Assembly (NCBI GenBank): GCA_021775875.1
Contig: JAJFHA010000017.1
Coordinates: 1-64,000, forward strand
Source of the DNA: Hyphomicrobiales bacterium
Lineage (GTDB): Bacteria > Pseudomonadota > Alphaproteobacteria > Rhizobiales > NORP267
DNA: 64,000 nucleotides
Direction of reading: 5' to 3'
Under the pieces are notes generated by a model. The model did no database searches, was not told the origin of the DNA, and saw only the letters and a list, made by a program, of their open reading frames with translations. Positions 12,160-14,740 of the stretch are shown piece after piece (within the stretch, counting starts at the first letter, position 1; each line of letters opens with the position of its first letter). The translations under genes were made by a program, and so were the position numbers.

Positions 12160-12252
12160 GATGACCCATTCAGGAAAATGTGGAAATCAGTACTTCTCGT
12201 ATCCGCAGTTTGGATTATATTGCACACAACCTGCAACCAGGAAAATTTTTCC

Positions 12253-13128
12253 ATGACCGATCCCGTAAAAGAATTGCTCGATACCCTTGATCTTGAGCCG
12301 CTTGAAAAAAATCTGTTTCGCGGCCTCAGCCCGCAGGTCGGGTGGCAACGGGTTTTTGGCGGCCAAGTGATTGGGCAAGCGCTGGTTGCAGTTCGCCGCA
12401 CCGTTGAAGATCGTGCCGCCCATTCCCTGCATGGCTATTTTATGCGCCCGGGCGATCCCTCCGTGCCGATCATTTATGAAGTTGACCGGATCAGGGACGG
12501 GCGCAGTTTCACCACCCGCCGGGTCGTCGCGATCCAGCATGGCAAAGCAATTTTTTCCATGTCGGCCTCGTTTCACAATAACGAGGACAGTCTGGACCAT
12601 CAATTTACAATGCCTGATGTTCCGATGCCCGAAGACCTGGCAAGTGAAGCTGAGCTTCGCGACATGTTTATCGACAAGATGCCGGAAAGCGCACGACGCT
12701 ATTGGGAACGCGCCCGCCCGATTGAAATGCGCCCGGTCGATCTGACCCATTTTGTCTCAGACAAAATTCTCGATCCGATCCAGAATGTCTGGTTCAAAGC
12801 GACCAGTCCGTTGCCAGACGATGTAGCGATCCATGAATGCGTGCTCGCATACGCCTCCGACATGACGCTTCTGGACACATCTCTTTTTGCCCATGGTCGT
12901 AGTTTTTTTAACCGGGATCTGCAATTAGCCAGCCTGGATCATGCCATGTGGTTCCATCGGCCTTTTCGCGCCGACGAATGGCTGCTCTATCACCAGGATA
13001 GTCCTTCAACCAGCGGCGCACGAGGTTTTAATCGTGGCTCCGTTTATACCCGCGACGGGGTCCTTGTGGCATCCGTCACCCAGGAAGGTCTGATCAGAGT
13101 CATCCAAAAAGAAAAACAAGGTCACTGA
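12253..13128 (+). CDS. tesB: Acyl-CoA thioesterase II
   Basis: FRGLSPQVGWQRVFGGQVIGQALVAV...SLDHAMWFHRPFRADEWLLYHQDSPS. Confidence 0.93.
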   Translation: MTDPVKELLDTLDLEPLEKNLFRGLSPQVGWQRVFGGQVIGQALVAVRRTVEDRAAHSLHGYFMRPGDPSVPIIYEVDRIRDGRSFTTRRVVAIQHGKAIFSMSASFHNNEDSLDHQFTMPDVPMPEDLASEAELRDMFIDKMPESARRYWERARPIEMRPVDLTHFVSDKILDPIQNVWFKATSPLPDDVAIHECVLAYASDMTLLDTSLFAHGRSFFNRDLQLASLDHAMWFHRPFRADEWLLYHQDSPSTSGARGFNRGSVYTRDGVLVASVTQEGLIRVIQKEKQGH

Positions 13129-13255
13129 TTAAAAATTAATCTCTTAAAATAAACTGCTTAAATTTTAGGCATATTTGTTTTTTTGTGACCGAATATTCTC
13201 AGATTTGCTCCTATAATTCTTTTTATAACAATAGCTTATGACTTTTTCCAACCAA

Positions 13256-13272
13256 TTGGCACAAGGCTTGAA
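13256..13272 (+). promoter_or_regulatory. Candidate sigma54 promoter of the glnK-amtB locus
   Basis: TTGGCAC-AAGGC-TTGAA, near the -24/-12 consensus TGGCAC-N5-TTGC. Confidence 0.6.
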
Positions 13273-13335: not shown

Positions 13336-13399
13336 ATGAAATTGATCATAACGATCATCAAACCCTTCAAGCTTGATGCCGAACGCGGACGCACTTTAG
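13336..13399 (+). pseudogene. glnK: P-II protein GlnK remnant: N-terminus MKLIITIIKPFKLD joined to a C-terminal ...NADAL-stop remnant in another frame
   Basis: ATG AAA TTG ATC ATA ACG ATC ATC AAA CCC TTC AAG CTT GAT followed at once by AAC GCG GAC GCA CTT TAG in a shifted frame; about 110-residue body missing. Confidence 0.8.
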
Positions 13400-13420
13400 T
13401 GATCGCACAGGAGTAGTTTC

Positions 13421-14740
13421 ATGAGCAAGACAAGTCTTTTTCTAAAAACCGGTCTGGGCGCATTGTTGCTCCTTTCCGGACCTGCCATGGCGCAGGAAAC
13501 GCCTGAATTCGCCAAGGCGATGGACACCACCTTTATCTTCAACACGCTGTTATTTCTGATCTGCGGCTTTCTCGTTATGTGGATGGCTGCTGGTTTCGCC
13601 ATGCTCGAAGCTGGCATGGTCCGCACCAAAAACGTTTCCATGCAATGCCTGAAAAATATCGGGCTGTTTTCTATCGCCGGACTGGCCTATTGGCTGGTCG
13701 GCTACAACCTGATGTATGATGGCGTCGATGGTGGTTATATGGGATCGTTCTCGATGTTCACGACCCCTGATCCGTCCGAAGACGCTGGCAGTTACGCTGC
13801 CGGGTCCGACTGGTTCTTCCAGATGGTATTCTGCGCCACCGCCGCATCCATTGTTTCAGGCACAATTGCTGAACGTATCAAAATCTGGCCGTTCTTTATT
13901 TTCACCGCACTCCTGACCGGGTTTCTCTACCCAATTACAGGTGCCTGGAAATGGGGCGCAGGCTGGCTTCAAGTAGCCAATTTTCAGGATTTCGCTGGTT
14001 CAACCCTGGTGCATTCTGTTGGCGGATGGGCTGCCTTGGCTGGCGCTGTCATTCTCGGTGCCCGGGTCGGCAAATACAATAAACAAGGTCAAGTTATGCC
14101 AATGCCCGGTTCCAACATGCCGCTGGCAACGCTTGGTACTTTCATTTTGTGGCTCGGCTGGTTCGGCTTTAATGGCGGTTCTCAATTGGCGCTTGGCACG
14201 ATTGCTGATGCGTCTGCAGTGGCCCGTATTTTTGTCAACACCAACATCGCCGCAGCTGCAGGTGTTGTCGCCGCAATCACCCTCACCCAGTTGATGTACA
14301 AGAAGATCGACCTGACTATGGCGCTCAACGGTGCTTTGGCTGGTCTGGTTTCGATCACCGCTGAACCGCTGACACCCAGCATGCCAGCCGCTGCCTTTAT
14401 CGGCGCCGTTGGTGGCGTGATCGTCGTCTTCGCCGTTCCCATGTTGGACCGGTTGAAAATCGATGACGTGGTCGGTGCGATTCCCGTTCATTTGTTGGCC
14501 GGTATCTGGGGAACCCTGATTGTGCCATTCACCAATGGCGGCGCGACTTATGGCGCCCAAATTATCGGGATCGTGGCAATCGGCGCGTTCACCCTGACCG
14601 CCAGCACGATTCTATGGTATGCGCTGAAACTTACCATCGGAATCCGCCCGAGCCTGGAAGACGAAGTGGCTGGACTGGATACGGCGGAAGTCGGGTTGGA
14701 GGCCTATCCGGAATTCGGTCAGGGCAGTCAACGGATATAA
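13421..14740 (+). CDS. amtB: Ammonium transporter
   Basis: AGFAMLEAGMVRTKN, STLVHSVGGWAALAGAVILGARVGKY, VHLLAGIWGTL. Confidence 0.97.
   Translation: MSKTSLFLKTGLGALLLLSGPAMAQETPEFAKAMDTTFIFNTLLFLICGFLVMWMAAGFAMLEAGMVRTKNVSMQCLKNIGLFSIAGLAYWLVGYNLMYDGVDGGYMGSFSMFTTPDPSEDAGSYAAGSDWFFQMVFCATAASIVSGTIAERIKIWPFFIFTALLTGFLYPITGAWKWGAGWLQVANFQDFAGSTLVHSVGGWAALAGAVILGARVGKYNKQGQVMPMPGSNMPLATLGTFILWLGWFGFNGGSQLALGTIADASAVARIFVNTNIAAAAGVVAAITLTQLMYKKIDLTMALNGALAGLVSITAEPLTPSMPAAAFIGAVGGVIVVFAVPMLDRLKIDDVVGAIPVHLLAGIWGTLIVPFTNGGATYGAQIIGIVAIGAFTLTASTILWYALKLTIGIRPSLEDEVAGLDTAEVGLEAYPEFGQGSQRI

Follow-up and report, generated by a model that had tools for sequence, protein, structure and literature searches.

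A glnK gene reduced to its two ends ahead of an intact marine-subtype ammonium transporter gene in a Hyphomicrobiales bacterium

Ammonium transporters can be plugged by GlnK, a small P-II protein. The glnK-amtB operon is a conserved pairing of a P-II gene with an ammonium transporter gene (Thomas et al. 2000, as cited in PMC4274968). In the 64,000-nucleotide stretch of Hyphomicrobiales DNA analysed here (the window), the position of glnK ahead of such a transporter gene is occupied by little more than a P-II start and a P-II end, which raises the question of whether glnK has truly been lost and what has become of the control of the transporter. At positions 13336-13399 (on the forward strand, as are all window features given below) a GlnK-type P-II gene is represented by its first approximately 15 codons joined straight to its last few codons. 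The remnant opens with an ATG at 13336-13338 that has a good Shine-Dalgarno sequence upstream, and MKLIITIIKPFKLDA is a canonical P-II start. It runs at once into G-AAC-GCG-GAC-GCA-CTT-TAG, which reads NADAL* in a different frame with its TAG at 13397-13399; the letters joined to MKLIITIIKPFKLDA, GAACGCGGACGCACTTTAG, supply this GlnK end out of register with the ATG. The first-pass annotation had described precisely this arrangement, a canonical P-II start followed by NADAL-stop in a shifted frame, and the letters agree with it. A PF00543 profile search of the genome returned no match at the remnant, and the 26-aa open reading frame (ORF) now present does not have the chain of about 112 residues, with T-loop, B- and C-loops, that characterizes P-II/GlnK proteins.

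Comparison with relatives, a check proposed in the first-pass annotation, found glnK intact at the same locus in both congeners. In G002, the closest genome compared, an intact 112-aa GlnK is encoded between the tesB-like thioesterase gene and the transporter gene (L034 1141-1479), and in G001 an intact glnK of the same 112 aa lies in the same tesB-glnK-amt order. The flanks of the window locus share 82% and 88% nucleotide identity with G002 over 1.2 and 1.8 kb, and the transporters are 95% identical. Because both flanks align with the intact G002 locus, the remnant is not a chance resemblance, and because both congeners are intact, the window locus represents a derived deletion. The conserved upstream neighbor is an ORF for a tesB-like acyl-CoA thioesterase (12178-13128; Pfam PF02551/PF20789/PF13622) that is syntenic in many relatives; the true translation start is probably internal to this ORF, near 12253. 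With an intact glnK of 339 nt at this place in the sister species G002, the window must have lost 275 nt, a number that is not a multiple of 3, and the loss is therefore out of frame. The alignment confirms the earlier claim of a glnK reduced to two ends ahead of an intact amtB-type gene; the accompanying figure of about 110 lost codons proved slightly high, as about 92 are missing. The gap to the transporter had been called normal, and indeed 21 nt separate the former glnK stop and the transporter ATG both in the window and in the sister species. Judging from the alignment to G002 and G001 and the shared synteny, the remnant (M1 to about A15, then NADAL*) descends from an intact glnK at this same locus, and of the three P-II paralogues the window glnK is the one that has become a pseudogene.

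The gene behind the remnant (13421-14740) encodes an intact 439-aa ammonium transporter. It belongs to the NCBIfam marine subtype TIGR03644 (619.9 bits, cut-off 514) and is not a canonical AmtB, scoring below threshold against the E. coli-type model NF007947 (139 bits, cut-off 657). Comparison with G002 gave a dN/dS of 0.049, indicative of strong constraint, with four branch-assignable amino-acid changes on the window branch and eight on that of the sister. This constraint may be mostly older than the deletion, and it shows an absence of decay rather than proving selection after the loss of glnK. A Shine-Dalgarno-like CAGGAG at approximately 13408-13413 is identical in G002. Further upstream, TGGCACAAGGCTTGA at 13257-13271 fits the -24/-12 consensus TGGCAC-N5-TTGC/A of a putative sigma-54 type promoter (here TGGCAC-N5-TTGA) and has a counterpart at the corresponding place in G001 and G002. 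The window locus occupies the same position as a glnK-amtB operon and keeps its sigma-54 type promoter motif, its ribosome-binding site and the transporter behind them, but differs in that glnK is cut to its ends, so that no intact glnK adjoins the transporter, and in that the transporter is of the marine subtype. The promoter, ribosome-binding site and transporter appear untouched by the deletion, and induction of the transporter under nitrogen limitation is consequently still predicted, from a promoter that would now in effect transcribe the transporter alone. Upstream of the promoter lies a dyad, TGCTTAAATTTTAGGCA (13154-13170), that may be an activator site of the NtrC type. Similar TGCCTAA-N3-TTAGGCA-like dyads recur upstream of sigma-54 promoters at L037, L146, L039, L049, L148, L195 and L196 and possibly represent a nitrogen activator site in the order.

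A search of the genome for another glnK or glnB, likewise proposed at the outset, found exactly two full P-II genes (PF00543), whereas each of the two congeners has three. The two encode GlnB (C3; 97% identical to that of G002) and GlnK2 (C18; 96%). Relocation of the window glnK (glnK1) to another part of the genome was ruled out, as only glnB and glnK2 orthologues were found. On another contig, the glnK2 gene follows a second Amt gene after a gap of 11 nt, and the two form a P-II/Amt pair in reversed order (L208, G000:C18, 3333-4900); a simple scan found no sigma-54 core motif just upstream of this pair. The C18 Amt passes the general model TIGR00836 and scores 425 against NF007947, below the E. 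coli-type cut-off of 657, and is closer to canonical AmtB than is the window transporter. In G001, the match to this second Amt (C64:4121-5314) contains one TAA according to the search, which may mark a pseudogene or may stem from overrun of the alignment. The earlier claim that AmtB had been left without its dedicated partner consequently holds in part: the window glnK is destroyed, but its neighbor is the marine-type transporter, and the canonical-type Amt retains a GlnK of its own in a complete pair. In E. coli GlnK, residues Arg47, Tyr51, Gln39 and Lys58 have been discussed with respect to AmtB blocking, modification and effector-driven switching (PMC4274968). Both GlnB and GlnK2 keep all four residues, and GlnD is intact in the genome. 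This retention of T-loop residues makes regulation of the window transporter in trans by GlnK2 or GlnB possible. After an ammonium upshift, the transporter would either be blocked in trans by one of these paralogues or have lost its fast post-translational gate.

We consider it highly probable that one deletion of about 275 bp disabled the glnK paired with this marine-subtype transporter and left promoter and transporter intact, with the gate either supplied in trans or lost. What the analysis shows is the deletion, the intact sister locus, two P-II paralogues elsewhere in the genome, a promoter motif and a transporter that have been retained, and the recurrence described below. As to its meaning, the most likely reading is that one of three P-II paralogues was lost, either neutrally or with mild adaptive benefit, and that nitrogen-controlled expression was kept while the fast gate was handed to a paralogue or abandoned.

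The frequency of such losses was evaluated in 150 Hyphomicrobiales genomes drawn at a completeness of at least 90%, 83 of which carry this transporter. The loci read also numbered 83, since G030 was brought in and G141, which has no upstream sequence, was left out. A sigma-54 motif precedes the transporter locus in 78 of the 83, and glnK lies upstream of the transporter in 76. The seven loci without it comprise one rearranged cluster (G020), where a P-II gene still stands at the head, before another Amt, and six losses: G000 (the window genome), the congeners G011 and G060, and G030, G028 and G087. A maximum-likelihood transporter tree requires five changes to account for these six genomes, equivalent to five independent losses. 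At all six glnK-less loci a sigma-54 motif directly precedes the transporter, at 80-164 nt. The window locus is like the other five in this and in having no glnK between motif and transporter. It differs in that both glnK ends are still readable, while no readable remnant was found in the other five, so that the window locus captures an earlier step of a process that has run to completion elsewhere.

L037 (G011) and L146 (G060), from two species of one genus, each consist of a sigma-54 motif and a marine-type amt with no glnK; a single P-II gene is present in G060, and none was found in G011 (94% complete) though GlnD is present. The congeners G087 (L197) and G054 (L199) share an identical sigma-54 core, TGGCATCAATCTTGA; in G054 glnK lies between core and transporter, and in G087, for which only one P-II gene was found, the transporter begins 80 nt downstream of the core. 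Apart from these loci, G004, a 1.4-Mb genome of the same family that is 99% complete, lacks both P-II and GlnD and has nothing matching this transporter, which suggests that P-II nitrogen control was lost altogether.

This recurrence bears on why glnK was lost. It could be proposed that loss of the paired glnK, in the window and four other lineages, is adaptive and releases a high-affinity ammonium transporter from being shut off by ammonium shock, a proposal compatible with the above explanation of what happened. In its favor are the five independent losses seen on the transporter tree, all with sigma-54 motif and transporter retained, and the single P-II gene in at least two glnK-less genomes (G060 and G087); however, loss at about 7% of loci is also expected from occasional neutral loss among redundant P-II paralogues, and we regard the adaptive explanation as rather unlikely. 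We are similarly doubtful of the broader proposition that marine-subtype transporters of Hyphomicrobiales repeatedly shed their paired GlnK and keep nitrogen-controlled transcription, as a shut-off escape or a P-II hand-over favored in some habitats, with the window genome caught in mid-change. Given at least four further losses of this gene among related bacteria, the window event is real but fairly ordinary gene decay, its modest twist being that the repeated losses all lie before one type of transporter and spare the promoter motif. Natural losses that retain promoter and transporter, with intact sister species at hand, could show whether the marine subtype needs its gate or whether another P-II protein substitutes.

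The remaining readings concern the deletion itself. The left breakpoint region in G002 reads GCC-GTACGCG, and the sequence across the window junction is GCC-GAACGCG-GACGC. Had the ancestral right end been GAACGCGGACGC, the two ends would have carried imperfect 7-bp direct repeats (GTACGCG / GAACGCG), a configuration that fits slippage; GAACGCGGACGC presumes an Asn codon at this point, like the one in the matching position of GEQNLEAL in G001. Slippage at these repeats is the probable route by which a single internal deletion of about 275 bp inactivated glnK. A two-step deletion via the 9-bp repeat GCCGTACGC is possible but disfavored, as it requires an extra loss of 23 nt and is therefore less parsimonious. 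Like other pseudogenes formed by deletion between short repeats, the window glnK has lost an internal segment out of frame, probably at the imperfect 7-bp repeats, and has intact flanks and neighbors, with nothing special except the gene affected; a literature search judged by titles found no relevant case of a glnK pseudogene.

An intact glnK hidden by an assembly or consensus artefact might be suspected, as the genome is a 28-contig draft and the only one for its species. The two ends of an intact glnK share no exact repeat longer than 9 bp, far under assembler word length, and the 9-bp repeat lies off the junction, so that repeat-induced collapse is unlikely. There are no ambiguous bases, and the same gene is cleanly absent inside contigs of five other genomes, so such loss does occur. 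We therefore judge an artefact to be very improbable.

The out-of-frame deletion also created a 26-codon ORF, MKLIITIIKPFKLDAERGRTLVIAQE (13336-13416, stop TAG at 13414-13416), for which Pfam and NCBIfam searches found no family match. That it is a functional leader peptide governing translation or activity of the transporter, the alternative raised in the first-pass annotation, seems the least likely possibility and scarcely credible: it has a plausible Shine-Dalgarno sequence (AGGGGAC), a stop only 4 nt (TTTC) before the transporter ATG at 13421, compatible with translational coupling, and a precedent in the 61-aa small protein that mediates GlnK1-AmtB1 interaction in Methanosarcina mazei (PMC10714827), but it is an accidental outcome of the deletion without a T-loop, its stop sits in ancestral intergenic sequence also found in G002 (CACAGGAGTAGTTTCATG), and in none of the five other glnK-less genomes does a P-II-derived peptide precede the transporter, which rules out a conserved leader. 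At most, the 26-codon ORF may be translated ahead of the transporter to no use.
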